Positions 21,508 through 51,840 of a DNA stretch of 56,936 nt are shown here, piece by piece. Each line of letters begins with the position of its first letter. Position 1 is the stretch's first letter. The position numbers and the translations under genes are program-made. The DNA lies in contig QHWT01000054.1 of the NCBI GenBank assembly GCA_003222675.1, forward strand, positions 1 through 56,936, read 5' to 3'. The notes under the pieces were generated by a model, which ran no database searches, had not been told where the DNA came from, and saw only the letters and a list, made by a program, of their open reading frames with translations. The DNA is from Acidobacteriota bacterium (GTDB lineage: Bacteria > Acidobacteriota > Vicinamibacteria > Vicinamibacterales > 2-12-FULL-66-21).

Positions 21508-23579
21508 TCACTGCCGCGGATAGATCGTCGTGTCATTCTTGAGCGGTCCCGGCGCTGTTTGTCGGAACGTACTTGGCGACAGAAGAATCTGATCGATTGA
21601 AAGGCCGTCTTCGCGCTGTTGGATTCTCATGGTCTGCGGACCCGTAGTCGCAAAGTAGATCGGCGGCGGAAGTATGTTCAGACCCCACGCTGTGTCTTGC
21701 CATCCCCAGACGGCCAACCCGCACCCACTGCAGTTCTCCAGGTTGTATCCCGCGGCCGACGTCGTGCCGATTCGATAAATCGCGCCGCCGGATGCGTTGA
21801 CGGCGCCCGAAAACTGCACGAACGCTGAGTCATTCGCATAGAAGTCGTTCTCCGCGCGGCCGCGGATCCAGAGGCGATATGGCTGTCCAGCCACGGCGTT
21901 GAACGTGAGCTCGACGTAACTCGAGGGACTCGCCGGTGCGGTGATGATTTTCGCGGCGTCCTGGTTTGGATTCCAGAGCCGCTGTCCGCCGGCGGCGGTA
22001 GCATCGGATACCCTCCGCCACGCGGTTCCGGTGATCCGCCCGTCCGTAGCGTACAGAAGGATGTCGCCGGATCCTAACGTCCCCGTCGTCAGAGGGGGTG
22101 GCGCGGTGCCTGTCGTCGAAAACTCCCACGTCGGTCCCGTTTTCGATAGGTTCGCCATCGTTTTGCTGACAACCTTCCAGTAGTAGGTCGTCCCTGGCAA
22201 CAGGCCCGTCACGGCGTACGATTCCTTCGTGGCTGTGACACCTGCCGTGGCGAAGCTGGGCATGTAGGCCGTGATAATTGGAGCGCCAAACGTCGGCGTG
22301 GTGCTCAAGTAAATGTCGTACTTGAACGCGTAGTAGCCACCTTCCCATTTCAGCGTCACCGACGAGCCGAGTCCGAGTGTGTTGTTCGCAGGCGAAGCGT
22401 AGACGGGAGCCTGAGGCGGCAGCGGCGTGAACGGCACGTACACCTGCTTGCCGATCGGCGTGCCATCGACCACCATTGGAATATCCAGTTCTTGTTCGTG
22501 AAGTAGTTGTGCTCTTCCTGGGTGGTCGACGAGGACGTGGTCCAGTTGGAAGAGCCGAAGACCACCAGCGGCGCTCTGCTGCCGATGGGCGCGAGGCCGC
22601 GGCTGTACAACACGATCGATTTCTGATGGACATCCTGATCGGTGGTGTTGTCCTTGACCTTGATCGGAATCCCGGCCATGTACATTCGATCGACGTTGTA
22701 TGCGTCCCACATCTTGGTCGGTGTGCGATACTGCTGCTCTTCTGTAATCACGCGCACGCGCACACCCGCCCGATGTCGGGCGATCAGGGCATCCGGGATC
22801 TTCGCCGAAGTAATCCGGAAAATCACGGCATCGATCTGGCGGTTCTCATACTGGATTTGCGAGGCCAGCCGGTTCTCGAAGTGCTGATCCGGAGGAAAGT
22901 TCAAATCCGTGGACACCGGATATGTCGCATAGTTGCGCACCAGCGGCGTGGTGATGTTCGCGAAGTTCAGGAAGGTTGTTGCGTCCACCCACTGATCGTC
23001 GAACTTCGTTAGGAAACTGTTGACAATCGCGGGATCATCGGTGAAGTAGATCACTTCATCGACGTAATTTGTATAGGGCGCGGTGAGCGGCGACGGAGAG
23101 TACGATCCGTCTGCATAATTCGCCGCGCTGAACTCGACTTTGCCCTGACCGGCGAACAACATCATTTTCCAATGATTGATCCCCGGTCCGCGATAGTAGC
23201 GGATCGGGATACCGGCGTTCACGAGCGTGTCCCGCACGGCTTTGTTCCCGCCGTAAGTAGGGTCAGCCTGCGTATCCAGGATGATTCGAACGGGCACGCC
23301 CGCCTGCCATCTTTTGATCAATGCGCTGGAGTATCGCCAGTCCGTCATGAACCAGAACGACACGTCGATCCCGACGGTCTCGTTGTTAATCAGTTGCAGG
23401 ATCGATGAGCGACAATCCTGGTACGAACTGTCGCACAGGCACTCGCCGCCGTCCGCACACGCGGGCGCTGCGGCGACCGCGTTCTGCTCTGCCTGTGGAG
23501 ACGTCCCCGAACTGAGGGCGAGGACCGCGCCGACGAAGACTGTGACGATCGGACGATTGAGTGTTCCTGGGCTCGTCAT
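21508..23579 (-). pseudogene. Secreted phospholipase-D-like protein, interrupted by a frameshift
   Basis: The N-terminal frame (from ATG 23579) has a signal peptide and two PLD-like halves: GINHWKMMLF and DVHQKSIVLY carry HxK motifs, each followed by Asn or Ser motifs (FSAANYADGS, FGSSNWTTSS). It reads to HNYFTNKNWIFQW, then loses sense. A second frame resumes at VVDGTPIGKQVYVPFTPLPP and runs through a fibronectin-like segment (YYAFKYDIYLST, GTTYYWKVVS) to a C-terminal ~170-residue module ending at 21508. The break is at ~22470-22490. Related proteins have a few more residues at this point, so a short out-of-frame deletion is likely (length 1 mod 3). Such secreted proteins may cleave phosphodiesters. 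As written the C-terminal half is not translated. Confidence 0.8.
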
Positions 23580-23769
23580 TATTCCGGTTCTGTATCAGCG
23601 ATGAGGGATGAATATGCCAGCCGAATGCCAGCCGCGAGCATGGACCGACTGAGTGGCGACGCCGGAATATGCGCAGGTCGAGAGTTGAGAAATCTATCGG
23701 CACAAATGGAGTGCGATTCTCTCGGAAGGTAGGATCTGTTGTGGCGGATGCCTTCAGCTCGGCAGGCAA

Positions 23770-23877
23770 TCAATTCGGTGCGGATTCGCTCAGCAACCCG
23801 AGCATCCGGTAAGCAACCGCGCGCAGGTGACCCGGGTTCTGCTCGAATCGCTCCGCCAGCCACTCGCGCTCGTTCAT
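23770..23877 (-). pseudogene. N-terminal fragment of an ECF-type sigma factor
   Basis: The ATG at 23877 has GAGGAAG upstream and opens MNEREWLAERFE, followed by HLRAVAYRMLGLLSE, the opening of the sigma-70 region 2 of ECF (SigJ-like) sigma factors. After 35 codons the frame ends in TGA and nothing resembling the remainder of region 2 or region 4 is found downstream. The regulatory start therefore survives but the gene does not. A full protein would be nearly 300 residues. Its start signals may still be active and give a short peptide. Confidence 0.65.
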
Positions 23878-24015
23878 CGTCACACTTCCTCGTCTCGTCC
23901 GGTCATAGCAGTAACGAACGAAACCTGCGCGATGTGACAAGCCAAAACACCGCTGTCTCGCGGCATCGCGAGCAACATCGACTGTCGAATAGTACAAGCC
24001 GCTCGTGCGCGAGTC

Positions 24016-24723
24016 TCAGGGACGTGTCAGATGCTTGTTGCTATCAGGCACAATCGCTTCCAGCTCGCCGGAGAGCAACCGATCGATCAGTTCCCGCACG
24101 CCCGCACCGCGTGACCTTCTGGTGACGACATCGACGAGTTCCTTCACTTCGTCCAGCGCGTTGTCGACGGCCGCCGAGATACCGCTGAATCGCAGAAACG
24201 CGTGATCGTTTTCAGCATCGCCAACGCCAACCGTCTCTTCCGGCAGCACGTTCAGCACTCGCAGTGCCACGGCAAGACCTGTCGCTTTCGTCACGTCGGA
24301 CGGCAATGCCATGACCGCGTCTTTGTTGAAGATCACGTGCCATTCCAGCCTGAGTTCGTGAATGGCCCGCAATACTTCATGTTCAAACGGAATCACCGTG
24401 GCTACGATCGAGTGCCCGACCAGGAGGGGCACCTGCGCGCGCTCCAGGGCTTCGACAAGGGCCGGCGGAGGCGGTGACGCGAGGGTCTGCACGGCGCCGC
24501 TCGCAGGCTCGTAGAGAACCGCGCCGTTTTCTGCGACGATGTGGTCGAACACGTCTGGGTGCGCAAACGTGTTGAACAGGCTGGAAAGCTCGCGTCCGGT
24601 GACGAGAACCACTTTCAAACCGGCCGCGCGCAGGCGTCGCAACGCCTCGAGGGTCGGCTCGTCAACGATTCCATCGTGCGCGATTGTGCCGTCGTAGTCG
24701 GTCGCAAACGCTCGGTATCTCAT
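24016..24723 (-). CDS. HAD-superfamily (Cof-type) phosphatase
   Basis: A 235-residue protein. The nucleophile motif is at the N-terminus (D9 and D11 in ATDYDGT), motif II is in VVLVTGRE, and the C-terminal metal-binding motif GVGDAENDHAFL is complete, with Lys in SDVTKATGLAVAL. The cap region between ~60 and ~150 is of the Cof or sucrose-phosphate-phosphatase type. Such enzymes dephosphorylate small sugar phosphates or cofactors in the cytoplasm. The substrate cannot be read from the sequence. It is transcribed on its own, divergently from the FG-GAP protein, and ends ~140 bp before the sigma-factor fragment. Confidence 0.88.
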   Translation of the reverse strand: MRYRAFATDYDGTIAHDGIVDEPTLEALRRLRAAGLKVVLVTGRELSSLFNTFAHPDVFDHIVAENGAVLYEPASGAVQTLASPPPPALVEALERAQVPLLVGHSIVATVIPFEHEVLRAIHELRLEWHVIFNKDAVMALPSDVTKATGLAVALRVLNVLPEETVGVGDAENDHAFLRFSGISAAVDNALDEVKELVDVVTRRSRGAGVRELIDRLLSGELEAIVPDSNKHLTRP

Positions 24724-25066
24724 CGTACGACCCGCATTATTCCGCCGCTTGCCAGGATCTTCACGTCAGAACCGCCGACATGTCAGCGACGCGCAAGCCT
24801 CGGCCGGACCGTGGATGGGCCCGAAGGCTGGTGATCGAACGATAACTTGCAACTCTGGCCCACGTCGTACCATCCCGCGGCTTGACCATCACCGATCTTC
24901 CTGCGGCACGTCTCACATAAACAACAATCCGTCGCCGACCGCGGGTGTAGAATGCCAACCTCTCGCGCCAACCCACGGTTCCTTCGCGTGGCCGCATTCC
25001 CGCCGGTGATGCAGGTGCGGTCATTCCAGTTCACCTGCGGACCGCCAAAAAAGAGCGTGAAACGCC
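24724..25066. other. 343-bp divergent intergenic region
   Basis: This lies between the HAD gene (minus) and the FG-GAP gene (plus). TGTAGAAT at 24946-24953 resembles an extended -10 box for the plus strand, but the matching -35 is poor. Short open frames on both strands show no protein-like character. Confidence 0.4.
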
Positions 25067-28000
25067 ATGGCTCGACTGACAACGGCGATCGTGTTTCTGA
25101 TCGGGTCCGTCGGCCTCGCGTCGACCGCGGCCGCGCAGGCGTTGACCTTCGCAAAGAACGACTACGCATCGGATGTTGGCGCGCGCGGCATTGCTTCCGC
25201 GGACTTCAATCGAGACGGCTGGGTGGATCTGGCTCACGCGAACATCACCCGGAACAGTGTGACCATTCTGCTCAACCGCGGCGGCGCCAGTCTTGCGCGG
25301 GCCGTCGAGGTTCCAGTCGGCGTGGGGCCGTTCGCTCTCACAATAGGTGACTTCAACCGCGACGGCATTCCGGATCTCGCCGTCACGAACGCCGATGGCC
25401 ACACGATTTCGATTCTTATCGGCCGCGGCGACGGTTCGTTCACCCGAACGGACATCGCAACGCCTTTGCAGAACCCGCGCGGCATCACGACGGCGGATGT
25501 CAACCACGACGGCCGCCCGGATTTGATCTACACGGGTTATGCAACGGGCACCGTGCAGGTGCTGCTCGGCAACGGCGCCGGCGGCTTCACGAAAGGCGCG
25601 ACCTACACCGCTTCCGGGACGCACCCGCAGGGAATCGCGACCGGCGATTTCAATCATGATCGATTTCTCGACGTGGCGGTCGCGTTCGACGGTGGAACTG
25701 GACTGCGGATCCTGTACGGCACGAGCGCTGGCTCATTCACCGCGCGAACGATTGCCGGCCATGGAAATCTCAACGTGCTTGCCGTTGGCGATCTGAACGG
25801 CGACGGCTGGCTCGACGTGGCGGCCGTCTCTACGAGTCGCAGCGATGTCGCGGTCTATCTCGGCGGCGCGTCCGAATTGAGATTCACGCAGTCGTACGAT
25901 GTCGGACTGTCACCACGTGGAATCGCGTTGGGCGACGTGAATGACGATGGGCGGCTTGATGTGATCACGGCGAACCGATCGTCGAGCACCGTCAGCGTCC
26001 TTCTTGGCGATCGTGCCCACCCGGGTACATTTCTCGCCGACGAGGAGATTGCCGCCTCGCGCGGCAGCCGCACTGTGACGCTCGAAGACTTCGACGGTGA
26101 CGGACGGCTGGATATTGCGGCGGGTAACGAGAGCACTGCGGCGGTGACAGTGCTGTCGAACGTCACGCTGTTCCAGAAGGCGGCGTTCACCTTCAGCGCC
26201 CTGACGCTGCCGAGCAACACAGTGCTTGGCGTCCAAGACACCGGTGATTCCCGGTTTTCGCCGGTTCATCAGATCGCGGTTGCAGATTTCAACCGGGACG
26301 GCAAGCTGGACTTCGCCCTGCCGGGCGGCCCGACGTCAAGCCCCTCCGAGGTGGTGATCATGATGCGCGACGGCCCGACCATGACGTTGGCGGGGCTGAC
26401 GCCGTTGACCAGATTTCTCGTCGATGATTTCAACGGTGACGGCAATGCGGACGTCCTCTATTATTCGACGGATCCCGAGGCAACGGACCATTCCACACGC
26501 TTCTTCACGTACTTGGGCGATGGCCGCGGCCACTTCACGGCGTCGCCGACGACCGTCGAATCGCAGTCGCTCGCATGGTGCGCGGCGGGTGATCTGAATC
26601 GCGACGGACGACCGGATCTCGTGTGCGATAACCTCATCCTGCTCGGCAACGGGAACGGCACCTTCCGCGATGGCGCGGCGTACGCCGCAGAGGGCGAGGG
26701 CACGGCGTTCCCGGGTCCGCTCGTGGCCGATATCAATCGTGACGGCAAGTTGGACGTCGTTGGCGGCGCGGGCATCTACCATGGCGATGGCAGCGGTGGT
26801 CTCGCTCTCGCGGATAGCTTCGACGGCCAGGACATCGGAAACGGCGTTGTCGCAGTCGCCGATCTCAATCACGATGGGTACGTGGATCTCGTCGCACGCG
26901 ACTTCCCGGATCGTGTGTCGGTGATTTTCGGGAGCGCCGACGGGTTCCTTCAGTCCGTGCACTACCTGGTGCTCGAGGACTACTCGTTGGTCGTCGTCGC
27001 CGACGTCAACCAGGACGGCCATCCGGACATTGTGTTGAACGGGTCCGCTGACCCGGAGAGCGCCGGCACCGTCATGGTGCTGTTCGGTAACATTGACGGC
27101 ACGTTCAACCCGTTCACGTTCGCGCTGAGCCCTGGGCGCGTGATCGTGGCCGACCTCACCGGGGACGGTCTTCCAGACGTGGCCGCGTACGATATGCACG
27201 CGGTGCACGTGCTGGTGAACGAGCGCAGCGACACCAATCACCCGCCGGTCGTTCCCGATTACAGCGTGACCGTCGGATATCCGTGCGTCACGCTCGACGC
27301 GAAGGCCTCTGATCCGGATCAGCACGCGCTCACCGTCGAATGGTTCGACTCCTCGGGCGCGTCAATTGGAACCGCTTTCGGTGGCATCACGGGCCTCGGC
27401 GTGTGCGTCGACCATGCGGGCACATACAAGTACCGCCGCACAGCGACTGACGGCCGCGGAGGGACCGCGAGCGGTACCGTGACGTTCACGTACCAGGTCA
27501 CGCTGAAGGAGATCGTCCTCTACGCCGCGGCCGGCAACGTTCAAACGGCAGGCAACTGGTCTCGGGTCGCGGATCCAACCGCGGCCGGCGGCTTCAGCGC
27601 GCACGATCATAACCTTGGCGCGCCGAAGGTCGCGCAGCCATCGGAAGCTCCGGCGAACACTGTAACTATTCCGTTCCTGGCAGATCCGAACTTGACCTAC
27701 AAGCTCTGGGTACGCCTGAAGGCCGACGACAACTTCTGGGCGAACGACTCGGTGTGGATGCAGTTCTCCGGTGCTCTGACCGTCCCGTCTCAGGACAACG
27801 TGTATCGCCCGGGCACGACGTCCGGCCTGTCGGTAAGTCTCGAGGAATGCCGCGACTGCGGCGTTTCGGGGTGGGGCTGGCAAGACGACGGGTGGGGCGT
27901 CGTGAACAAGAACGGCGTGTTGCTGCGGTTCGAGCCCGGTCCCCAGGTGATCGTCATCCAGACACGTGAGGACGGCGTATCAATCGATCAGATCGTGCTC

Positions 28001-28081: not shown

Positions 28082-28193
28082 AACCACAAAGGCGATCAGC
28101 GCCTCCCAGGCGCCTTGAAGAACGACACGGCTATTCTTCCAGCTCGTTGAGCGTGCGGGCACACGTGACTCCCATCGCGAAAGAAAAGGGGAC

Positions 28194-28586: not shown

Positions 28587-28626
28587 CGTATGGTCTCCTC
28601 TCCGAGCTCAGTTCGCCGAAAGCCGC

Positions 28627-33623: not shown

Positions 33624-33983
33624 GGCGATACATACGGCCCTCAATGATGAAGGTTTCAGGAGGGTTCTTGCCCGGCATCGGGCCTGTCGCGAGTCAGTCT
33701 GGCGCGGGTTTTATGTCGAATTACGTCGCAGCCGTTCGCAGTCTGCAGGTCGGATCTCGCACGCGCACATACAGTAGAGCTCCGATTTGGGTTGACACTG
33801 GTGCCGGGTACAGTTCATTCTCTCGTCGACCCAACACACACTTGGGAAACACGGCACGGACGGCCCGCGCGCGCGTGTGTGGTGTGCTCGCCTTTGCCTA
33901 TTGGGTCGTTCGCATTCGCGTCAGTGTTCCTGGGTTCCGAAGGTCCGCTCCCCGCCGGCGAGGAAACCCGGGGGGAGGACCCG
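33624..33983. other. 360-bp divergent intergenic region
   Basis: This lies between the ADOP operon (minus) and the broken TonB receptor (plus). TTGACA occurs at 33792, but no -10 box stands at a suitable distance. GGGAGGAC at ~33974-33981 is the receptor's ribosome-binding site. No protein-like frame is seen. Confidence 0.4.
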
Positions 33984-36900
33984 ATGTCTGTAGCTCAGCG
34001 TTTCTGTGTATTCGTCTGTCTCCTTACATTCACGTCGCTGGCAAGCCTTTCCGCTCAAACCACCTCCGCTACGATTACCGGTACGGTCCGCGATCCATCC
34101 GGCGCCGCGGTGCCCGATGCGAAGATCACGGCAACCAACGCGGAGACTCTCGTCGTCACCACGACCAGGTCGAACAAGGAGGGGGTCTACACCGTGGCCC
34201 AGCTCCGTGAAGGCCCCTACCTGGTGACCGTTCAGGCGACGGGCTTCAGCGAGGCGATTGCGACCGACGTCATCCTGGTCGCGCGCGACATCCGGCGTCT
34301 GGATATCGCGCTGCAGGTGGGACCGATCGAGGACCGAGTGGACGTCGTCGGCGGCGCGACCCTCATCGAAGCGGAAACGGCGCGCATCAACGATACGCGC
34401 ACGGCCGACCAGCTCAAGACGCTCCCGCTCAACGATCGCGGCGTCTATGCGTTCCTGCAAATGACGCCGATGATGTCGCCGCGCAACGGCAGCTATTCCT
34501 TTGCCGGCAGCCGCACCAATCAGTCACAGTTCACGATCGATGGCACGACCATGAGCGATGGCGTGACCGAGAACCCGATCGGCCCGCTGGCGAACTTCGT
34601 GGAGTCGTTCCAGGAAGTCAAGCTCGATCTGGCGAACAACAGCGCCGAGTTTCCGACGCTCGGGCAGGTGACGATCATCTCGAAATCCGGCACGAACGCG
34701 TTCAACGGCTCGGTCTTCGATTACTACCAGAGCCCGGTGATGCGCTCGCGGGACTTTTTTGCGACCGCGCGCCGAGCGGGCATCCAGCACAACATCGGCC
34801 TTTCGGCTGGCGGGCCGGTTGAAGTCCCTGGCCTGTACAACGGCCGGAACCGCACGTTCTGGTTTGGATCGGGCGAGACGTTCACCGGCAGCGCGGCATC
34901 AGCGGCGCTGAACCCGACGGTGCCCCTCGAGGCGTGGCGCCGCGGCGATTTTTCTGCGCTTGGCATCCCGATCCGCAACCCGTTCACCGGGGAGATCTAC
35001 AACGACGGCAGGATTCCGGCCAGCGCGATCAACCCGGTATCGCTCCGGATTCAGGACAGGTTTTATCCGCTGCCCAACACCGGCAACACCACCGTGTTGC
35101 GTCCGAGCAACTACAACGAAACGGTCCCGCGCGACTTTTCGAAGCCGTACTACCTGACCGGCCGCATCGATCACAACATCACCGATCGAGACCGCGTGTA
35201 TGCACGGTTGACCATGCACCAGTCAACGAACCCGGTGTGGGAAGGCAACCTGCCTGCATTCGGCCAACGGAACCAGTTCCGGCAGAACAAGGCGTTGACG
35301 CTGTCGTACACGCGCATTCTCGGTCCCTCACTGGTGAACGAAGTGCGGTATGGGCACGCTTACAACAACAATCCAGTCGCCGGACCGCTCAACGGTCCTG
35401 AGGTCGTCAACGATCTCGGTCTGGAGGGGCTGGCGCCGAATCTTCCTGATATCGCCGGACTCTACAAGGTGAACTTCCCGGGGACCGGCCTCACCGGCTT
35501 GAACCAGATCAATTGGAGCAATCCCGGATTCCTGAACCGGGCTCACCAGGTTCAGGAGCAGCTCACCTACATGCGCGGCACGCACACGTTCAAAGGTGGG
35601 GCGGAGATTCGCAATACCAGCTACGACGAAGCGATCGCGAGCGGCAACCTGTTCGGCTTTGCCGACTTCACGAATCGATACACCGCTGTTCCGGGCGTTG
35701 CGCAAAGCGGCCACGCGTATGCGGACTTCCTCTTCGGCGTTCCGACGACCGCCGCGCGCGCGTTCCCGCCCATCACTGTCGAACGCCGTCGCTGGACGTA
35801 TGATTTCTTCGTCCAGGACGACTGGAAGGTCACGTCACGGCTCACGTTGAGAACGATCAGATGGCGATCTTCGATCCTGGTACCGGACAGATCGTCGTGC
35901 CAGATGGCGGCCTCGCGCGGGTCTCGTCGCTCATGCCGGTCGGCTACGTGAACGTCGTGACGGCGAGCAGCGTCGGGCTGCCGAGCAGGGCGCTGGTGCG
36001 AACCGATCGCAACAACATTGCGCCAAGGCTCGGCGCGGCGTTCAAGCCGTTCGGCAACGCCAACACCGTCATTCGCGGCGGCTACGGCATCTACTATGAC
36101 GTGATTCCACTCGATCCGCTGGCAGGCAGCGTTCCGTTTGTGATCAACGAGCTGCCGTTCACCAACACGCAGCCGGTTCCAGCCGTCGTCCTTCCGCAGG
36201 TGTTCCCGTCGGCCGGCGCCGCAGGGCCGTCAGCGGTCGGTCTGCCGCGGGCGATCAACACACGCCTGCAGATGCCGTACAGCCATCAATGGAACGTGAC
36301 GGTCGAGCACCAGCGGTGGAACACGGGCTTCCGTGCGTCTTACGTTGTGACGGCCGGCCGCCAGATGTGGTACTCGCGCGACATCAATGCGCCGGTGCCC
36401 GATGCGCGTCTCTACATCGACAAGCCGCGGCCATTCCCGAACTATCCGGCGATCCCGTTCGTCGACAACGGGGGCAGCCACGAATATCGCGGATTCACCC
36501 TCGAGGCGGAGCGGCGGATGAAGCACGGCCTCTTCGTGCAGGCGGCGTACACCACGGCACGCGATCGCGGAAACACCAACGAATGGTCGAACCAGATCGA
36601 GAATCCGTTCGATTTGGGCCGCGAGGTGGGTCGTGACATCAGCACGCCGCGGCAGCGTCTTACCACCGCCGTCATGTACGAGCTGCCGTTCGGTCACGAC
36701 AGGAAGTGGCTCAGTCGCGCACCGCGAGCGGTCGATCTCGCGCTGGGCGGCTGGCAGGTTTCGGCGGTCGGCTACCAGCAGACCGGCGTCTTCCTCACGC
36801 CGACAATTACCATTGCGGACCCGACCGGCACACAGTTCACCAGCGGCGCCAATCGGCCGCTCGTGGCGCTCCGTCCCGACCAATTGCGCAATCCTGCGCT

Positions 36901-37246
36901 TTCGAACCCGACGATAAACGGATGGTTCGATCCGTCGGCATTCGCCGCCCCGGCGCTCGGCAGCTTTGGCAGCGCGACGCGCGGGTCGATCGAAGGGCCG
37001 GGCTTGAACGTGTGGCACGCGGGCATCCACAAGATCTTCCGCGTCTCGGACTCGCCGAGCGCGCCGCTCTTCCGCGTCGAGTTGACGACCACGAATCTGT
37101 TCAACCAGGCGCAATGGGGCAATCCGAACGTGAATGTGACGCCAACCAACGTGGCGGCCGCAACGATCCGCTCGACCGGCGGTCCCACGAGCTGGCAGCA
37201 GGCGGGAGCCCGCACGATGCGCCTCGGCCTGCGCGTTGAGTGGTAG
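33984..37246 (+). pseudogene. Oar-like TonB-dependent receptor, broken by an internal deletion/frameshift
   Basis: The first frame starts at ATG 33984 with a signal peptide (ASLSAQ), then a carboxypeptidase-regulatory-like domain (SATITGTVRDPSGAAVPDAK), a plug (FTIDGTTMSDG, SFQEVKLDLANNSAEF) and half of the barrel, to FFVQDDWKVTSRLTL at ~35848. Sense continues in another frame with ENDQMAIFDPGTGQIVVPDG through to LFNQAQWGN and MRLGLRVEW, the barrel end. In homologues the strand with LGLRYE sits exactly between these pieces, so ~15-20 codons are missing (length 1 mod 3). The full protein would be about 1,100 residues. The gene sits alone between an ADOP operon and two terminators. It is either a recent pseudogene or an assembly error. 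Confidence 0.85.
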
Positions 37247-38263: not shown

Positions 38264-40850
38264 GTGCGCCTCGCCAGGATCGCCATCCATCGACTGCGCT
38301 CGCTGCTCCGATCGTCTCGCGAAGAAACGGAGATGCAGCAGGAGCTCTCTCAACACATCGAGCAACTCACCAGCGAGTACATCGCGACCGGCATGAGCGA
38401 GGCTGACGCGCGATCCGCGGCCCGACGGGAATTCGGCTCAGTCGAAGTGATCAAGGAGCAGTGCCGGGACATGCGACGCGTCACCATGGTGCAGGACGTG
38501 GCGAAGGACCTGGCGTATGCGGGCCGGCTCTTCACGAAATCCCCGGGCTTCACGCTGACGGCCGTGCTATCGCTTGCGCTTGGCATCGGCGCGAACACGG
38601 CAATCTTCACCCTCGTCAACGCAGTGCTGCTGCGAATGCTGCCCGTGCGCGAACCAGCCGAACTCGTGGAAGTCAGCCGCGAAGGCGGACTTGCGATCAG
38701 CTACGGGGTCTATGAAGCGATCCGCGATCGCAATGAGGTGTTCTCCGGTGTGCTCCTGACCTCCGCCGGACGCTGGGGTGTGAGTCTGTCTGCCGGCGCG
38801 GTCAACGCCGGGGATATTCACTTCTCGCCCGTATCGGGCAACTATTTCGCCGTGCTGGGTGTTTCGCCAGTACTCGGCCGATTGCTGACGGACGACGATC
38901 TGCCTGCGTCTAGCGCCGCGGTCATCAGCTATCAGCTCTGGCAGCGCGTCTTCGCCGGAAATCCCGGGGCGCTCGGCAGGACGCTGCGAATGGGGCGGCG
39001 GAACTACACGGTGATCGGTGTCGCACCCGCAGGCTTTACCGGTGTGGGCATGGGACAGACCATTGACATCTGGGTACCGATCACCTGGTTCGAACCGCGG
39101 TACTTGCGCGGCAACGAGGCGAGCATGTTCCGGACCCTCGCACGACGAAAGCCGGGCGTGACGCTGGAACACGTGCGCGCCGACATGACGCTCATCGCCC
39201 GGCAGCTCGACTCCGAGTGGCGGCTCGAGCGGCCCATGCGCCTGGCGGTGGCCAACGGCAGCGGCGGTCTGACGCGGTTACGGCGGCAGTTCGCGCGCCC
39301 GCTCTGGATCGTCATGACGGTGGTTGCGCTGTTGCTGCTCATCGCGACGGTGAACGTGGCGAACCTGCTGCTCGCGCGGGCCGGCGCGCGACGCCGTGAA
39401 ATGGCGGTCCGCCTGTCGCTCGGCGCGAGCCGCTGGCGGCTCATTCGGCAATTGCTCACCGAGAGTGCGCTCCTTGGCGGCGCGGGCGGCGCGCTGGGTC
39501 TCCTCCTCGCCCCGATCGCGGCCGCATCGCTCGTCCGGTTCCTGTCCTCGGCGATGGGGACGATGAATCTCTCGCTGAATTTCGACGGCCGAATCCTGGC
39601 CTTCACGCTCACGACGTCGCTGATTGTTGTCGTCTTGTTCGGTCTGGCTCCCGCGCTCGCGGCGACCCGACTGGATCTGACGGGGATGTTCAAAGGGAGT
39701 GCCGCTGCAGGATCCGGTGACCGCCGTGCGCGCCCGGGGAAATGGCTGGTCGTGGCTCAAGTGGCGATCTCCTGTGTCCTCCTTGCGGGGGCCATTCTCT
39801 TTGCGCGAAGTCTTCGCACGCTCACGCATCTCGACGCCGGCTTCAGACCCGAGAACGTGCTTCTCCTGGCCGTGGGCCTAGAACCCGGAAAGCCGCGAAC
39901 CGACGTAGAAGCCGTACGTATCTACGACCGCGTCGTCGAACGGTTGATGCACGCTCCCGGCGTCCAGTCGGCAGCATTCTCCAGCGAATCATTGTTCAGC
40001 GGGAGTAGCTGGACGGAGCCCGTCACCGCGCCGACATTCGTTCCGCAGCCCGGTCAGGAGCGCGACGCGGTGTTGCTCGTCATATCTCCGCAATTCTTCG
40101 AGACCATGCGGACGGGCCTTCTCCGTGGACGGCGGTTCGATGCGCGGGACGATCAACGCGCGGCGAAGGTGGCGATCGTGAACGAGGCGTCAGCTCGCTA
40201 CTATTTTGGTGACACCGACGCTCTGGATCAGACCTTTCAGCTTGGTTATCCAGCCGGACCGCCGACACGAGTCGTAGGCGTGGTGCAGGATGCGAAGTAC
40301 AAGAGCCTGAAAGACCCGGCGCCACGGATCGTTTATCTCCCTGCATTGCAAGTTCCTGGACCCGTCGGCAACCCCAGTCTTGCGATTCGTACCACAGGCG
40401 ATCCGCAAAGGATGGCGGATCTTCTCTGGACGGAGGCGCACAACGAAGTCGCGGACCTTCGGTGGCGCGGCGCGGGCACCCAGGCGCAGCTGGTCGACGG
40501 CACCATCGCCCAGGACCGCATGCTGGCGCAGCTCTCGGGAGCATTTGGCCTCACCGCAAACCTCCGAAATCGGAGTACGGCTTGCGCTCGGCGCACAGCG
40601 GACCGACGTCATTCGCCTGATCGTCGGTCGCTCCATGACCCTCGTCACAATCGGCGTGCTCATCGGTCTCGGAGGGGCCGCAGCGCTCGCGCGCCTGGTG
40701 GAAAGTCTGCTGTTCGGTGTCCGGAGCGCTGACGCCGTAACGCTCGTCGCAACACCCGCACTGCTACTCGCCGTTGGAACCGCAGCCGCATACTGGCCTG
40801 CCCGTCGCGCAGCGCGGCTGAATCCGATTGCGACACTCCGCGCGGAGTAA
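38264..40850 (+). pseudogene. PadR-linked ADOP permease, broken near its C-terminus
   Basis: Starting at GTG 38264, this has the ~75-residue N-terminal prefix of PadR-linked permeases (RSSREETEMQQELSQHIEQL, AARREFGSVEVIKEQC), TM1 with ALGIGANTAIFTLVNAVLL, a periplasmic domain, central TMs with ATVNVANLLLARAGARRREM, and a second periplasmic domain up to RMLAQLSGAFGLTA at ~40558. The expected next TM helix is missing; sense resumes in another frame with TSEIGVRLALGAQRTDVI and continues to RLNPIATLRAE. Aligned with the intact permease at 49062, about 19 residues are lost, and the frame requires a deletion of 2 mod 3 (for example 56 nt). As written the protein would read ~60 unrelated residues past the break. 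Confidence 0.85.
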
Positions 40851-40931
40851 CCCAAAGCAGTCGTAGGTGTGACGCCATCTCCCGAATGCGGAGTACTGCG
40901 GCATTCAGCGCTTTGTGGTAAACACTTCCGC

Positions 40932-42366
40932 ATGCCGCAGCTCTGGATAAACGGCGAGTGGCAGGCCGGATCCTCCGACGGTTCCCGCCGCATTCAGAAT
41001 CCCGCAACGCTCGAGATCGTTGACGAGGTCGTGGAGGCCGGCGCGGGCGACGTACGGCGAGCATGTGCCACGGCCGCGGACCGACAGCGCCACTGGCGTA
41101 CGCTGCCGGCGCTCGAACGGCGCGGAGCTCTCGACGCTCCTGACGAAAGAAGGGGGAAAGCCGCGCATCGAAAATCTCGACGAGGTCGAGTGGTGCGCCG
41201 CATGCTTTCAGTACTACGCCGAAATCGCGCGCAACTCGCACGGCTCGTCGATCCCTCCGACCGCGGAGCACCAGATCAACTTCACGATCAAGGAACCGCT
41301 CGGGGTCGTGGCAGCGATCGTTCCGTTCAACTATCCGCTCCTGTTGCTCGTCTGGAAGATCGCGCCGGCGCTGGCCGCGGGGAATACCGTGGTCATCAAG
41401 CCGTCGGAGCTGACGCCGCTCGCGACGCTGCGTCTCGTCGCGCGCGCGATGGCGCATTTTCCGCCCGGCGTGGTGAACGTGGTCACGGGCGGCCCGGACG
41501 TCGGCGCCGCACTGGTCGACGATCGCGATGTCGCCTGTATCGCGTTTACGGGATCGACCGCCGTGGGATCGCGCATCGCGGTGCGCGCGGCCGAGCAGCT
41601 CAAACGCGTCAACCTCGAGCTGGGCGGCATCGATCCGCTGATCGTGTTCGATGACGCGGACCTGGACGTGGCGGTGCCGGGAGCCGCGTGGGCGCGATTT
41701 CTGAACAACGGGCAGGTGTGCACGTCGGCCAAGCGCATCCTGGTGACGGAGAAGATCGCCCGCGACTTCACCGATCGTCTCGTCGCGCACACGCGCACGT
41801 TGCGCGTCGGCGACGGCATGGATCCAGATACGGATCTCGGGCCGTTGATCTCGGAGCGGGCACGGATCCGCGTGGAAGCGCAGGTCGCGCGCGCCCTGGA
41901 GCAGGGCGCAACACTCCTCGAAGGCGGCCGGCGGCTCGACGTCGGCCGCGGCTGGTTCTATGCGCCCACAATTCTGACCGACGTCCAGCCGGCGCATATG
42001 GTTGTCTGCGAGGAGGTCTTCGGGCCGGTCGCATCGATTCAGGTGGTCAAGGACGCGGACGAAGCAATCGCGCGCGCCGCGCAGTGCGAGTACGCGCTGG
42101 GCGCGAACATCTATACTCAGAACCTGACCTGGGCGCTCAAGGCGATGCAGGACATCAAGGCGGGCACGTTCTGGATCAACGACCCGCTGACCGACAACGA
42201 CGCGGCGCCCTTCGGCGGCATGCGCAAGAGCGGCATGGGACGCGAGCTCGGCGAAGAGGGACTCGACGCGTTCCGCGAAACCAAGCACGTTCACCTGGAC
42301 TTCATCCCGGAGCGGAAGCCGTTCTGGTTCCCGTACCGGCGGCGACGCGGCGAGATTCCCGCGTGA
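40932..42366 (+). pseudogene. Aldehyde dehydrogenase, broken near its N-terminus
   Basis: The first frame, from ATG 40932, reads MPQLWINGEWQAGSSDGS, then ACATAADRQRHWRTLPALERRG and loses sense at ~41125. A second frame carries the rest: AELSTLLTKEGGKPRIENL, FNYPLLLLVWKIAPALAAGN, NLELGGIDP with the general-base Glu, NNGQVCTSAKRI with the catalytic Cys, and PFGGMRKSGMGREL. Compared with the intact paralogue at 44218, ~14 residues are absent (deletion of 2 mod 3, e.g. 41 or 44 nt). Apart from this gap the enzyme looks normal, except that GGID replaces the usual GGKN. Its stop overlaps the next gene as GTGA, so the two were a coupled unit. Confidence 0.85.
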
Positions 42367-45678: not shown

Positions 45679-45693
45679 ACGGCTCAATCGAAA

Positions 45694-45755
45694 GCCGGGT
45701 CTGAAGACCCGGCCTACGAAGCCGCGTCGTTGTAGGGCGGACCTTCAGGTCCGCC
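45694..45755. repeat. REP-like double palindrome
   Basis: There are two perfect 8-bp hairpins: GCCGGGTC-TGAA-GACCCGGC at 45694-45713 and GGCGGACC-TTCA-GGTCCGCC at 45736-45755. Between them CCTAC and GTAGG also pair, so the whole unit is one larger imperfect palindrome with complementary tetraloops. It lies in an intergenic gap after the aldehyde dehydrogenase, as repetitive extragenic palindromes do. It could also attenuate read-through. Only one copy was noticed in this window. Confidence 0.65.
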
Positions 45756-45947
45756 GTCATGACCAATAAGCCCTGAGGCGTGAGCCGCTCTCCGGCATGG
45801 CCGGTGCAAACCCTTCCCGCAACACCAGAATTCGCAAGTTTGTGAAGACATCCGGGCGTGCGCGCTGTCACTTTTGTAAGTCGGTGTTCGATTTCGAATG
45901 CGGTCTGCGGATTGCGCAACGGTCTCTCGGGATTCCAGGAGGCTCGT

Positions 45948-46400
45948 ATGAACAGGCTTCGATGGTCGGCCGGCGTCGTCATAGCGGTACTTGCGGCGGC
46001 TGCTCCGGTTCTCGCGCAACAGCCGTCCGCGGCTGGACGCGTCAAAGTGGTGTCGGGCTCCGCATTCGTCGTGCGTCAGGACGCGACGATTCCCGCACAA
46101 CTCGGACAGGACGTGTTCGAGACGGACAGCCTGAAGACAGGCGCTGACGGACGAATCGGCATCACCTTGAAGGACGACACGCGCGTCTCGCTCGGTCCGG
46201 GCAGCGAACTGCGTCTCCAGCGATTCATATACGAGCCCGGGAGCGGCAGTCTCGGGATGGTGCTGCAGTTCGTTCGCGGCGCTGCCGCGTACGTCTCCGG
46301 ACGCATGGCGAAGCTCGCGCCGCAATCGATTCGCCTCGAAACACCGGCGGCGATCGTCGGCGTGCGGGGCACGAGCCTCGCGATTCGCGTCGATCACTGA
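45948..46400 (+). CDS. FecR-domain secreted protein
   Basis: A 150-residue protein. ATG 45948 follows AGGAGG; the open frame extends upstream without signals. A signal peptide ends at PVLAQ. The mature protein is a FecR-type beta domain: GRVKVVSGSAFVVR, DVFETDSLKTGADGRIGI, DDTRVSLGPGSELRLQ and RLETPAAIVGVRGTSLAI. Here the domain is free-standing and periplasmic, not fused to an anti-sigma factor. The stop overlaps the start of the OmpA-like gene (TGATG), and a CHASE2-HD-GYP gene follows; FecR next to CHASE2 signalling proteins is a known arrangement. It may act as a peptidoglycan- or polysaccharide-proximal input. Confidence 0.87.
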   Translation: MNRLRWSAGVVIAVLAAAAPVLAQQPSAAGRVKVVSGSAFVVRQDATIPAQLGQDVFETDSLKTGADGRIGITLKDDTRVSLGPGSELRLQRFIYEPGSGSLGMVLQFVRGAAAYVSGRMAKLAPQSIRLETPAAIVGVRGTSLAIRVDH

Positions 46401-47032
46401 TGGCGAGCGCGCGACCACTCCTGCTTTCAATCGTTGCCGGGACGCTGGCGGCCGGGTGCGGCCCGAAACACGTCGCCGGCACCACGCGTCCCGGGCAGGC
46501 GATGGTCGCGCTGCTGCCGGATTCCGAAACGGGCCTCACCGGACGTGCCGTCGTCTCGAACGAAGGCGGATCTGCGGACCTCGCGGCGCCGCGCGACGCA
46601 ACGCTCGCGACGTCGCGTCGACGCCCGGGTGCCGTCAAGACGTTGAGCGCGGCTGATGTCGAACGCTTCTTCGGCGATGCGTTGTCGGCTCTTCCTCCGG
46701 CGCCGCGGCATTTCACGTTGTTCTTCCGCTTCGAATCCGACGAGCTGACGGATGAATCCCGCGCGCTCGTTCCCGAGATCCTGCGGGCGGTCAAGGATCG
46801 TTCCGACCCCGAGGTCGCCATCGTCGGGCACACGGATACGATGGGCACGCCTCCGGCGAACGTCGAGCTCGGATTGAAACGCGCGATGATGGTTCGCGCG
46901 CTGCTCGTGGAGGCGGGCCTGGCGGCCTCTACAATCGAGGTCACGTCGCATGGCGAAGGGGATCTGCTGATCCGCACACCCGACGAGATCCCGGAGCCGC
47001 GCAATCGGCGGGTCGAGATCTCGGTGAAATAG
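46400..47032 (+). CDS. OmpA-family lipoprotein
   Basis: A 210-residue protein from ATG 46400, overlapping the fecR-domain stop. A lipobox (LAAGC) closes the signal peptide, so it should be anchored in the outer membrane. Residues ~20-105 are unstructured and variable. From ~110 it has an OmpA-like peptidoglycan-binding domain: HFTLFFRFESDELTDESR, VAIVGHTDTMG, ANVELGLKRAMMVRALLVEAG and EPRNRRVEISVK. The TDxxG and NxxLxxxRA-type positions contact meso-diaminopimelate. It ends 12 bp before the CHASE2 gene. It may tether the complex to the cell wall. Confidence 0.9.
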   Translation: MASARPLLLSIVAGTLAAGCGPKHVAGTTRPGQAMVALLPDSETGLTGRAVVSNEGGSADLAAPRDATLATSRRRPGAVKTLSAADVERFFGDALSALPPAPRHFTLFFRFESDELTDESRALVPEILRAVKDRSDPEVAIVGHTDTMGTPPANVELGLKRAMMVRALLVEAGLAASTIEVTSHGEGDLLIRTPDEIPEPRNRRVEISVK

Positions 47033-47044
47033 CCGCGAACCGCG

Positions 47045-48985
47045 ATGAGATCGCCTTCGCATGGCGGCGGCCGGACACGCCGCCGCCTGGTATTCATCTG
47101 CGGCGTCGTTCCCGTACTCCTGACAGCGGTTCTCGCCCTTTACCGGCCCGCGGCCCTCGGGCGCCTCGATGACACCGTTTACGACATGCTCCTGCGATCG
47201 TCCCGGCCGCAGCCGCCGGGCGACCGCGTCGTCATCGTCGACGTGGACGAGCGGAGCCTTTCAACGATCGGCCAGTGGCCGTGGCGCCGCAACGTCATCG
47301 CCAGGCTGATCGCTCGTCTGCGCGCGATGGGCGCATCGACGATCGCGCTCGACATCATCTTCGCCGAATCAGATCGCTACGAGCGTGTCGAAGGCATGAA
47401 CCGTCGGGTGCGCGAGAGCCCGCAACGCTATCCGGATGATGTATTGGCGGACACGCTGAAGGACGGCCGGGTCGTCCTCGGCTACGCGCTCACATTCGAC
47501 GCGGCAGCACCCGCACCCAGTGCCTGTGTGCTGCACTCTCTCGGGCTCGCCATCGTACGTCCACGCGAGGAAACCGACGACGCCCCGTTCTTTCACGCGA
47601 CGGGCGCCGTGTGCAGCCTGCCGGCGCTCGGTCAGGCCGCAGGCGTTTCAGGTTTTCTGAACGCCGCGCCCGATTCCGACGGAATTCTCAGGCGCGTTCC
47701 TCTGATCGCTGAGCTCAATGGCCGTGTGTATCCCGCATTGGCACTCGAGGCGGTCGCTGCCGCGACCGGCAGACGCGACATGGTGCTTCGGGTCGCGAAC
47801 GTCAACGCCTCCTCGCTGATGGTCGGCGACAGAGCCGTGCCCGTCGACGGTAAGGGCAACCTGTTGCTGCGGTACCGCGGGAAGAAAAAGACGTTCCCGT
47901 ACGTTTCCGCAGCAGATGTGCTGAGCGGCGAGGCTGCAGGCGCAACGCTGCGCGACAAGGTCGTGTTCGTCGGCACGACAGCTCTCGGCACGCGAGAAGT
48001 CGTTGCGACGCCGCTCGACACGCTGTTCGCGGGCGTCGAGGTCCAGGCAACCGTCGCGGACAACCTTCTGCAGCAGGATTTCATCCGCCGCTCAACGATT
48101 GGATCAATCGTCGAAAGTCTGGTGGTACTCATCCTGGGTCTTGCCGCCGTGGTGCTGATCGCGGTCACCGGCGTCGTCGCCGGAGTGGCAGCCAGCGCCG
48201 GCGCTGTCGGAGCGGTCTGGCTGGGCGCCGTCTGGCTGCTCTCGGCCAATGGACTGTTCATATCCCCGCTATATCCGACGATCAGCGTGATCTCGGTTGT
48301 CGCCATCATGACGCTCGCAAACTTCACGGTCGAGCGCCGGAGAGCCGAAACCGCGGGACGCGAGAGATCGGCGGCGCAGCGCCTGATGGTGCAAACGCTC
48401 CTGTCGCTGACCGAAGCGAGGGATAGCGAGACCGGACAGCATTCGCGTCGAACGCAGCGCTACGCACGGCTGCTTGCAGAACAACTGGCGACGCACCCGG
48501 ATTTCCATCACGACCTCACGTCGGAACGGATCGACCTCCTGTCGAGCCTCGCGCCGCTTCATGACATCGGCAAAGTGGGCATCCCGGATCACATTCTCCA
48601 CAAGCCCGGTCCGCTCACTGAAGAAGAGCGGAGGGAGATGCGAAAGCATCCTGCGCTCGGGCGCGAGGTCATCCTGAAGGCAGAGCAGCAGGCGGGCGTG
48701 CGCGACGATGCGACCCTCGAGATGGCAAAGGAGATCGCCTACACGCACCACGAACGCTGGGACGGCACGGGTTACCCACAAGGGCTCCGCGGCCGGGACA
48801 TCCCGATCGCCGGACGGGTGATGGCCGTCGTCGACGTGTACGATGCCGCGACCACCAGGGAACTGTACCGAGCATCGATATCGCACGACGCTGCCGTCCA
48901 GTTCATTGTCAACGCCAAGGGCACACACTTCGATCCCGCGGTCGTGGACGCGTTCGAGAAGGTCGCGGCGGCGTTTCGCGGCTGA
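47045..48985 (+). CDS. CHASE2-domain membrane protein with HD-GYP phosphodiesterase
   Basis: A 646-residue protein. TM1 at ~15-35 leads into a large periplasmic CHASE2 sensor (~40-340; VVIVDVDERSLSTIGQWPWRR, IALDIIFAE, FPYVSAADVLSG, VFVGTTALGTREVVATPL). Three hydrophobic segments (~350-430) follow, typical of CHASE2 proteins. The cytoplasmic part is HD-GYP: ARDSETGQHSRRT, LHDIGKVGIPDHIL, HHERWDGTGYPQGLRG and VVDVYDA, with all metal-binding and GYP residues present, so c-di-GMP hydrolysis is expected. In operon with FecR-domain and OmpA-like genes, it probably reads an envelope signal. CHASE2 is more often fused to adenylate cyclase or kinases. Confidence 0.93.
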   Translation: MRSPSHGGGRTRRRLVFICGVVPVLLTAVLALYRPAALGRLDDTVYDMLLRSSRPQPPGDRVVIVDVDERSLSTIGQWPWRRNVIARLIARLRAMGASTIALDIIFAESDRYERVEGMNRRVRESPQRYPDDVLADTLKDGRVVLGYALTFDAAAPAPSACVLHSLGLAIVRPREETDDAPFFHATGAVCSLPALGQAAGVSGFLNAAPDSDGILRRVPLIAELNGRVYPALALEAVAAATGRRDMVLRVANVNASSLMVGDRAVPVDGKGNLLLRYRGKKKTFPYVSAADVLSGEAAGATLRDKVVFVGTTALGTREVVATPLDTLFAGVEVQATVADNLLQQDFIRRSTIGSIVESLVVLILGLAAVVLIAVTGVVAGVAASAGAVGAVWLGAVWLLSANGLFISPLYPTISVISVVAIMTLANFTVERRRAETAGRERSAAQRLMVQTLLSLTEARDSETGQHSRRTQRYARLLAEQLATHPDFHHDLTSERIDLLSSLAPLHDIGKVGIPDHILHKPGPLTEEERREMRKHPALGREVILKAEQQAGVRDDATLEMAKEIAYTHHERWDGTGYPQGLRGRDIPIAGRVMAVVDVYDAATTRELYRASISHDAAVQFIVNAKGTHFDPAVVDAFEKVAAAFRG

Positions 48986-49061
48986 GCCTGTCGTTCACGC
49001 GTTCGTTGCATCCCGGCGTTATCCTTCAGGCCGGTAGACGACCCGGAACGTGAGGTCCGCC

Positions 49062-51461
49062 ATGAATCGACTTCGCGATCTGATGCAGGATGCCCGCTAC
49101 GGCGTCCGCACCCTCGCTCGGAACCCTGGCTTTGCCATTGCCGGCATCGTGACGCTGGCCCTCGGCCTCGGCGCCAACATGGCGATGTTCCGCTTCCTCG
49201 ACGCTGTGTTGCTCGAGAGTCTGCCTGTCCACAAGCCACGCGAGCTCGTGCTGGTCAGGCCGTGGAATTTCGACTATCCCTCGTATCGAGAGTTCACATC
49301 AATGACGGCGGATGTCTTTGCTGCCACGGCCGCGCACGCGTTCACCCCGGTAGATTTCTCCGACGGCGGCGCCAGCGAGGAGGTTCAGGCTGAACTCGTG
49401 AGCGGCAGTTACTTCGCCATGCTTCGCGTCTCGCCGCTGATGGGCCGTCTTCTCGACGCTGAAGACAACGGCGCCGAAGGTGAACATCGGGTGTGCGTGA
49501 TCAGCTATGCGCTGTGGCAGCGCAGGTTCGGGGGCGATCCGTCGACGGTCGGTCGCATGATTCACCTGAACGCGGAGTCCTTCGAGGTTGTCGGCGTGAC
49601 GCCTCGGGATTTTCGCGGCGGGGACCTGCACACGAGACGTGACCTGCAGATCCCGATGGCGATGACCCGAACGTTCATGGGTATGGCGCGCGATTCGACC
49701 GACTGGACGTGGCTGAGCATCATGGCGAGACTGGCGCCGGGCGTCTCGCGTCAACAGGCCCAGGCGGCGGTCCGCGCGAAATTCAAGCTGAGAGATTTTC
49801 AAAGAGAAACGCCGCTGTCATTGGCCGACGGACGGCAGGGACTGGGATCTTTGAGGAGCCAGCTGGAACAACCCGTACTCATCGCGCAGCTGCTCAGCGC
49901 GTGCGTGTTCCTGATTGCGTGCGCGAACCTGGCGGCGTTGCTGCTGGCGAAGACCTCATCGCGGCGGCGTGAGATCGCGATCCGTCAATCACTCGGAGCC
50001 TCACGCGGCCGACTCATGACGCAGGTCCTCCTGGAGAGTTCGCTCCTTGCAGGGGCCGGCGCTGTGATCGGCGGCGGATGCGCCGTGCTCCTGGACGGTG
50101 TGCTCACAAACATGCTGTCCGAACCCGGCGCGCCGCTGGAACTGGTCCCGCTTTCGTCGGCACTCTGGATTGGTGTTTCGTCGGGTTCGATCGTTCTCAC
50201 CGCGCTGGCCGTCGGCTCGGTTCCGGCGCTCGCCTCGACACGCGAAGCTCCGCTCGACGGGCTTCGTGAATCACCGCGCCACGGCTACGGTCCGATGTGG
50301 GTCGGCAGGGGATTCGTTGTTCCGCAGGTGATGGTCTGCCTCGTGCTCGTCTTCGCGGCCAGTCTCTTCGCTCGTTCGCTGCACAATCTTCACGCCGTCG
50401 ATCTCGGGCTGGATGCGGCTCACGTGGTGGTCATGACGACGGATCCCGAGCGCAGCGGATACACGGCAACACGCGTCGCTGAGTTCTATGACGAATGGCT
50501 GCGGCGGGCCCGACTGGTGCCCGGCGTGTCGGTCGCCAGTCTCGCGAACATCACGGCGATGTCGGACAGGATGTTCGCAGGTGGAGTAATAGCGCCCGAT
50601 GCGGAGCCGCATCGAGGCCCGGAGCCAAACAACAACATCAACGTCGTCAGTCCAGACTACTTCCGCACCGTGGGCCTGACGTTCATCGATGGGCGGCCGT
50701 TCACCGATCGTGATGGAGCGCAGGCGCCTCGGGTAGCTATCGTCAATCAGCGGTTTGTCGATTATTACTGGCCTGGCCGCTCTCCAATAGGCCGTCGCTT
50801 CTCGGTTTTCACCACGGCACAGGAGGTGGAGATCGTCGGGGTCGTGCGCACGGCGAAGTACCGCACTATTCGCGAGGAACCGCAGATCACGATCTACCTG
50901 CCGCTCGCACAGCGGAAATCCACCGGGTTCACGCTGCACGCCTACGTTATCGGCAACACCGCGGCCGCCACCGCGGCGTTGCGCCAGGCCGTCCACGACA
51001 TCGATCCACGAGTGCCCGTTTACAACGTGGGCCTTCTCCAGGATCACATCAACGCGCGACTCTCCAACGAGCGCGTCCTGAGCGTGCTCTCGATCCTGTT
51101 CGCGTCCCTTGCTCTGCTCGTCGCGTGCGCTGGTCTCTATGGCCTCGTGTCGTACGCGGCCGCGCGCCGCCGACGGGAAGTCGGTATCCGACTCGCCATC
51201 GGAGCGCAACGGCGCAGCATCCTCTCACTTTTCATCAAAGATATTCTGGCGCTCGTCGGAATTGGCGTCTGCCTGGGAATTCCTCTGTCAATCGCCGTGG
51301 GACGGCAGTTCGGCAGTGTGCTGTATGGTGTCGCACCTTCGAGCCTTCCGACGCTTCTCGTGGCCGCTGGACTCCTTGCGACGGTTTCGATTGCGGCGGC
51401 TGCAATTCCAGCGGCCCGCGCAACGAGGGTCGATCCTGGCGTCACTCTGCGCGACCAGTAG
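49062..51461 (+). CDS. ADOP-type (MacB/FtsX-like) permease
   Basis: A 799-residue permease. I use ATG 49062, seven bases after GAGG; GTG 49050 is in frame. It has TM1 with IVTLALGLGANMAMFRFLDA, the first periplasmic MacB-like domain to ~270, the central TM block with ACANLAALLLAKTSSRRREI and IRQSLGASRGRLMTQVLLES, a second periplasmic domain, and final TMs with CAGLYGLVSYAAARRRREVG and the end RVDPGVTLRDQ. The whole family architecture is intact. No PadR gene or ATPase is adjacent, and the N-terminal prefix is lacking. It follows the CHASE2 gene by 76 bp and could be read from it. Confidence 0.92.
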   Translation: MNRLRDLMQDARYGVRTLARNPGFAIAGIVTLALGLGANMAMFRFLDAVLLESLPVHKPRELVLVRPWNFDYPSYREFTSMTADVFAATAAHAFTPVDFSDGGASEEVQAELVSGSYFAMLRVSPLMGRLLDAEDNGAEGEHRVCVISYALWQRRFGGDPSTVGRMIHLNAESFEVVGVTPRDFRGGDLHTRRDLQIPMAMTRTFMGMARDSTDWTWLSIMARLAPGVSRQQAQAAVRAKFKLRDFQRETPLSLADGRQGLGSLRSQLEQPVLIAQLLSACVFLIACANLAALLLAKTSSRRREIAIRQSLGASRGRLMTQVLLESSLLAGAGAVIGGGCAVLLDGVLTNMLSEPGAPLELVPLSSALWIGVSSGSIVLTALAVGSVPALASTREAPLDGLRESPRHGYGPMWVGRGFVVPQVMVCLVLVFAASLFARSLHNLHAVDLGLDAAHVVVMTTDPERSGYTATRVAEFYDEWLRRARLVPGVSVASLANITAMSDRMFAGGVIAPDAEPHRGPEPNNNINVVSPDYFRTVGLTFIDGRPFTDRDGAQAPRVAIVNQRFVDYYWPGRSPIGRRFSVFTTAQEVEIVGVVRTAKYRTIREEPQITIYLPLAQRKSTGFTLHAYVIGNTAAATAALRQAVHDIDPRVPVYNVGLLQDHINARLSNERVLSVLSILFASLALLVACAGLYGLVSYAAARRRREVGIRLAIGAQRRSILSLFIKDILALVGIGVCLGIPLSIAVGRQFGSVLYGVAPSSLPTLLVAAGLLATVSIAAAAIPAARATRVDPGVTLRDQ

Positions 51462-51479
51462 CCCGGCGGGTGTCTGCCG

Positions 51480-51840
51480 CTGGCGCAAGCTCCTTACGAC
51501 TCGAACGATCTGATCTTCCGTGTCCTCCGCGAGCGGACCGGGCTGACCGTAGAAGATCATCGATCGATCGACCTCGTAGCCGCCTTCGGGAATCACCCGT
51601 TTGGATGCCACGTAAAACGCCACGTCGTTGCTATAGGCATTCACCCAGAGCCGCGACGCGATTCGGATAACCTGTCAGACGGATCGGCTCGTCTGGGGTG
51701 ATATCGATTGCACTGACGCCGACGATCAGCGGTGCGGCGGCGGGAGCCGTCCGACCACTACCGGTTGGCGCGCACGCCGCCGCGAGTGCGACGACCGCTG
51801 TCAATCCGCCGCGCTGGAGGAGCGTCACGATCCGCCGCAC
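51480..51840 (-). pseudogene. Remnant of a neutral/alkaline ceramidase-like gene with a large internal deletion
   Basis: The N-terminal frame from ATG 51840 has a lipoprotein signal (AVVALAAACA) and GVSAIDITPDEPIRLTGYPN, the start of the neutral ceramidase family. At ~51650-51670 it changes frame directly into LWVNAYSNDVAFYVASKR, then VIPEGGYEVDRSMIFYGQ, the C-terminal part of the same kind of protein. The ~350-400 residues that should lie between, including the active site, are missing. The remnant cannot be functional. It lies just downstream of the PVC-type haem protein gene on the same strand. Confidence 0.7.

Follow-up and report, generated by a model that had tools for sequence, protein, structure and literature searches.

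According to Cooley and Wright 2024 (PMC11017572), many bacterial pseudogenes are artifacts of assembly, with low coverage and the assembler among the causes. That study focused on internal stops and frameshifts and did not assess metagenome-assembled genomes. Chen et al. 2020 (PMC7111523), in excerpted text, describe scaffold joins filled with Ns, in some cases although the flanks overlap, and consensus sequence without read support; they suspect that local assembly errors are most prominent in IDBA-UD assemblies and warn of wrong or incomplete protein sequences entering databases. The draft genome analyzed here resembles the first case in its frameshifted "pseudogenes," which very probably derive from assembly and not from evolution, and would resemble the second in having scaffold joins with Ns, errors of local assembly, and wrong database proteins. 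It differs from the former in the lesion, a loss of ~20–65 bp, and from the latter, as far as the excerpted text extends, in that this text neither describes losses of some tens of bases that leave no Ns nor counts them in genes. Judged by title and start of abstract, searches of one open-access library listed no closer precedent than these two papers.

The source genome is a 7.16-Mb draft of 152 contigs with a completeness rating of 99.9% and a G+C content of 63–64%; its many contigs and short N-runs suggest that it is most likely a short-read metagenome assembly. The window, that is, the whole stretch of DNA analyzed, comprises bases 1–56,936 of contig C20 (145,472 bases). Including this window, 1.66 Mb of the genome was surveyed by tblastn, using as queries the frames of relatives G010 and G008, 83 loci from other relatives, and the source genome itself. 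The family is represented in the searched set by 12 genomes, one of which, besides the source genome, belongs to the same genus.

Frame breaks within the window

The preliminary description of this DNA had claimed that four otherwise conserved genes each lose a short internal segment and one frame, and that a fifth loses most of its middle. For three of the four, measurement of the missing length against homologs supported the claim. The aldehyde dehydrogenase (plus strand, 40,869–42,366), recognized by Pfam and by its ortholog in the syntenic relative G003, is spread over two frames that meet at 41,110–41,120, where a net 44 bp is missing relative to G003. Identity to that ortholog rises from 65% ahead of the junction to 85% beyond it, and the DNA alignment contains three further small gaps nearby. 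Searches of plasmids and named genomes returned, among the matches listed, only homologs below 60% identity.

Immediately upstream, an ADOP-type permease with MacB_PCD and FtsX domains (plus strand, 38,264–40,847) also occupies two frames, with its junction at 40,546–40,565. Besides the Pfam assignment, homolog offsets and a same-genus DNA alignment define this break: of 34 query pairs, 30 give a net change of −56 bp, among them the one with the same-genus ortholog at 64% identity. The permease family is very large, with at least 92 matches in the source genome (84 of 224 first-look candidates were scored) and 86–89 matches in each of five other family genomes.

On the minus strand, a PLD-like gene (21,508–23,579) begins in one frame (22,356–23,579), which carries PLDc_2, and continues in another (21,508–22,710), with a junction near 22,470 and a net loss of ~19 bp. 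The frame switch is also visible without homology, in a codon-usage scan. The size of the loss is less certain because the homolog offsets disagree: four of seven homologs give −19 bp and the remainder −25, −37, and −67, the −37 coming from the gene's own paralog on contig C152. In the tblastn frame-break survey, −19 was obtained for five of nine query pairs.

The TonB-receptor-like gene (OMP_b-brl_4; plus strand, 33,792–37,246) supports only part of the original claim. That it changes frame, from 33,792–35,951 to 35,861–37,246 at ~35,849–35,864, is certain from Pfam, nine homologs, and the codon-usage scan. The two frames match Pfam model positions 1–385 and 404–834, with 18 positions skipped at the frame change. 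All nine homologs agree on the frame, with offsets of −49, −43, −37, −10, +17, +17, +20, +26, and +35. With five of the nine positive, the offsets do not establish that a segment is missing here.

The fifth gene did prove to have lost most of its middle while keeping its ends. By tblastn, this ceramidase-like remnant (minus strand, 51,486–51,843) consists of an N-terminal piece joined at 51,658/51,659 to a C-terminal piece, with ~935–990 bp absent; the offset is ~−935 bp against locus L179 of G010 and ~−989 bp against each of L177 and L178, from two further relatives. The C-terminal piece is 72% identical to the G010 ortholog, and the N-terminal piece is short. The loss falls in a different size class from the others and may have a different cause. 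Given that large internal losses are no more common in the source genome than in the controls (six clusters against five, in a scan that missed this remnant itself, its first piece scoring too low), the remnant may be real. A second ceramidase-like gene in the source genome (contig C128, 59,522–60,194) is also divided between two frames, which cover profile positions 4–144 and 176–233. A DUF7133/HEAT gene adjoins the ceramidase-like gene both in the window (51,486–54,865) and in G010, where the end of the former and the latter share one open frame at L179.

Recurrence across the genome

Similar events occur elsewhere in the genome. The survey of 1.66 Mb returned 59 raw frame-break clusters, 24 of which were kept: three at N-runs, six of 1–4 bp, and 15 N-free losses of ~17–74 bp. 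Together with the breaks in ispE and glnS described below, this amounts to 17 N-free losses of ~17–74 bp; gains in this size range were absent from the kept clusters. We viewed the alignments of 23 kept clusters (all but one at a run of 139 Ns) and of part of the 35 dropped ones. By our reading, those dropped were shadows from the opposite strand, borders between genes, tandem repeats, duplicates, or mirror images of a broken query. The dropped rows include gains of +10 to +37 at L188, L274, and L289 (opposite strand) and at L199 (the mirror image of the PLD-like break in the window). The TonB-like row of the window (+17, +20, +26), its length not being fixed, was left out of the count. Weak rows of 1–11 bp at L265, L266, L268, and L290 were dropped as ambiguous or unviewed, so that small changes are undercounted. 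Short tandem arrays with TACTGG-type and GTTCACGG-type units, at L217 near 12,904–12,983 and L280 near 6,185–6,272 of the source genome, gave spurious frame matches.

Under a uniform rule, the source genome yielded 12 N-free losses (~17–56 bp) in the 545 kb covered by homologs, compared with none in 180 kb of G010 and no N-free loss in 109 kb of G008 (289 kb together; one-sided p 0.006). In G008, a low-identity row of −11 was N-free but outside the size class, and a row of −22 fell at an N-run. In 266 kb of loci from other relatives, no N-free losses were found; these loci were fetched as best matches and are thus biased toward intact genes. One −25 row (L186) was left out of this census, being taken as the border of two genes, presumably cytochrome oxidase subunits, and the uniform filter lost the aldehyde dehydrogenase, L269, and L271 breaks seen in the broader survey. 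The frame-break pattern in the source genome exceeds chance. Extrapolated to 7.16 Mb, there would perhaps be ~160 out-of-frame losses, or ~240 if in-frame losses are proportionate, for an overall range of 150–250.

Within conserved alignments, in-frame losses of 5–24 residues numbered eight, against six gains, an excess that is not clear. Two of these losses (33 and 51 bp, each relative to one relative) lie on contig C135, which also holds glnS and three out-of-frame losses of the class within 40 kb. Sizes based on paralogs vary by multiples of three, as at L184 (−22, −1, −4) and at L213, where −23 was obtained in 17 of 54 pairs. On contig C34, boxB (L281, ~4,731) is 20 bp shorter than in G001 by DNA alignment and 23 bp shorter in other query pairs; its neighbor (L281, ~5,316), which we take to be boxC, carries a 1-bp change, also out of frame.

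Frame switches called from codon usage proved a poor measure of frequency. With loose settings, the scan called 177 candidates per Mb in the source genome, 178 in G010, and 228 in G008. With strict settings the counts were 28, 8, and 2 (16.9, 20.0, and 5.0 per Mb), rates that fail to separate the source genome from G010; from their junction translations, eight of the ten strict control candidates read as gene borders or opposite-strand frames. The strict scan served to find ispE, glnS, and the second break of a TonB-like gene on C34.

Broken single-copy genes and hidden lengths at N-runs

Two of the affected genes, named by NCBIfam as ispE and glnS, are present in single copy. The ispE gene (C152, about 33.7 kb) lies in two frames in the source genome and in one open frame in eight relatives; in G001 it is divided into pieces between two contigs, and neither G002 nor G004 returned a match. 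A net loss of 44 bp was measured against seven of the eight relatives, the eighth alignment running through the junction without a clean value. Bacteria require isoprenoid synthesis, and a live cell with a broken ispE is therefore unlikely unless another isoprenoid route exists. By its profile, Dxr is split into three pieces, one of the breaks falling at a run of 14 Ns. The only glnS (C135, about 35.7 kb) is broken as well, by a net 50 bp in all six relatives tested (of eight loci). Since gatB is intact in the source genome, glnS might be dispensable, and charging of tRNA-Gln without it is conceivable.

Breaks of this kind are not unique to the source genome. In G006, six of six comparisons show glnS (L320) to be short by 65 bp with no Ns present, at a different site from the loss in the source genome, and a PLD-like gene of G003 has an apparent break of ~41 bp by match coordinates. 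To some degree, then, such breaks occur in other drafts of the family.

The fetched stretches of the source genome contain 21 N-runs, the shortest a single base and six of them no longer than 10. Adding the shortfall relative to homologs to the run itself gives the length hidden by each of three short runs inside genes, in every case more than the Ns themselves: ~34 bp for a run of 20 Ns (31–40 depending on the query), ~40 bp for 9 Ns, and ~43 bp for the 14 Ns in dxr. The run of 139 Ns departs from this size: judged from one query, it hides ~147 bp. These measurements are few, covering three of the 21 runs plus that in dxr; within them, the short N-runs hide the same size class as the N-free losses. 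Runs in relatives gave similar values, with ~45 bp hidden by 16 Ns in G003 and ~31 bp by 9 Ns in G008. At two N-runs of G008 (L250, 8,457 and 13,140), about 10 bases recur on either side, as would happen if contigs with overlapping ends had been linked through a spacer of Ns.

Origin of the short losses

The short out-of-frame losses (~17–74 bp) are very probably assembly artifacts rather than mutations, a reading that excludes the ceramidase-like loss and, for the TonB-like gene, covers the frame break only. A few tens of bases would have been lost at many of the joins between contigs. At some joins a short N-run would mark the loss and under-count it; at others the loss would be unmarked, and the gene would read as a frameshifted pseudogene. 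Because short N-runs hide similar lengths, the N-free sites may themselves be contig joins, for example where the estimate of the gap came out at zero or below. That the assembly drops short segments, creating false pseudogenes genome-wide, was one of two options in the preliminary description, and it is favored by the recurrence of the losses, their sizes and spread, the conserved flanking frames with codon-level selection on them, the breaks in ispE and glnS, and the lengths hidden by N-runs. Needed single-copy genes are affected besides dispensable ones (ispE, with glnS and dxr also broken), and marked gaps of 9, 14, and 20 Ns hide lengths of the same size class, in a few cases.

Several observations count against an artifact. 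Both ispE and dxr belong to one pathway, and their real loss in the presence of a replacement route is conceivable; with gatB intact, glnS could be dispensable. Genuine lesions exist in the source genome, in the form of four stop-codon genes and six changes of 1–4 bp. The N-free loss of 65 bp in G006 glnS, the variable sizes obtained from paralogs, the ~147 bp behind the 139-N run, the five positive offsets among nine for the TonB-like gene of the window, and the tally of eight in-frame losses to six gains belong to the same side of the account.

The other option raised was that the lineage is accumulating small deletions. True recent pseudogenization of this kind, with many real deletions of 20–65 bp in genes that are dead or dying, is unlikely. 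In its favor, the ADOP-type and TonB-like genes have many paralogs and the PLD-like gene a few, making them possibly dispensable, and real lesions occur elsewhere, among them the changes of 1–4 bp. As a sign of decay, stop codons gave at least 229 raw candidates, mostly opposite-strand or gene-border noise, which fell to 19 after a strand filter and to four genes read as real. One of these, a gene on C22, has lost 690 bp in addition. On C135, a TonB-like remnant (L276, 5,900–6,355) contains three in-frame stops and has large losses; in contrast to the genes with a single lesion, it has the look of a genuine pseudogene. Ordinary pseudogenes thus exist in this genome. However, the short losses strike the only copy of ispE and also glnS, kept gains of like size are absent, stop codons are few, nine junctions lack direct repeats, and selection is still visible in the frames.

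The latter point follows from differences relative to relatives on both sides of five junctions, where the third codon position is the largest class throughout. For example, differences at codon positions 1/2/3 were 0.05/0.02/0.33 to the left and 0.10/0.05/0.32 to the right of the junction in boxB, and 0.07/0.05/0.36 and 0.16/0.08/0.37 in glnS. The weakest contrast, 0.20/0.28/0.51, came from a short stretch, the 69 codons to the left of the aldehyde dehydrogenase junction; an intact neighboring aldehyde dehydrogenase gave 0.12/0.09/0.39 as a reference. These five genes were under purifying selection through most of their divergence, and a very recent loss is compatible with the test. The combination of relaxed selection and further lesions was not found at the five junctions. 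More than one lesion per gene was seen in dxr and in the TonB-like gene on C34, where one break is evident from homology and one from codon usage only.

Sequence at the junctions bears on how bases might have been lost. Microhomology at nine junctions measured 1–3 bp, against random means of 1.5–1.8, and the direct repeats expected of slippage did not appear there beyond chance. The preliminary description had suggested drop-out at structured GC-rich sites; on this reading, sequencing or polymerase would fail at such places. The G+C content of the genome and two G008 N-runs that lie, by eye, in inverted-repeat-like sequence would fit such a bias, but the lost segments had mean percentiles of 0.59 for G+C and 0.51 for folding energy within the same genes (0.5 meaning no effect; a small sample of nine, with relatives' sequence standing for the lost bases). 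Without an excess of direct repeats, G+C, or folding, the junctions argue against both slippage deletion and structured-site drop-out, within the power of nine cases, and we regard site-specific drop-out as very unlikely. A real process that very recently deleted 20–65 bp genome-wide, blind to repeats, structure, and G+C, in a cell tolerating broken ispE and dxr through a replacement route, is likewise highly improbable.

Ordinary length variation among homologs combined with single-base sequencing errors is barely credible, for while the TonB-like offsets (−49 to +35, in one frame) fit a 1-bp loss in a variable region and those of the PLD-like gene vary by multiples of three, the losses are consistent in ispE (−44 in 7/8), glnS (−50 in 6/6), and the ADOP-type permease (−56 in 30/34 pairs), and the largest gap was of the expected size in all nine DNA alignments of junctions (eight with a relative, one with a paralog).

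The feature is thus very probably non-biological, the ceramidase-like remnant perhaps excepted. A draft rated 99.9% complete may hold 150–250 N-free losses by extrapolation, so that claims about gene loss, pathways, or pseudogenes drawn from such assemblies risk being wrong. When a conserved single-copy gene lacks just one stretch of a few tens of bases and its flanks are intact, this is an inexpensive sign of the error. As biology the finding is ordinary; as a warning it matters, since it points to a genome-wide source of false pseudogenes.
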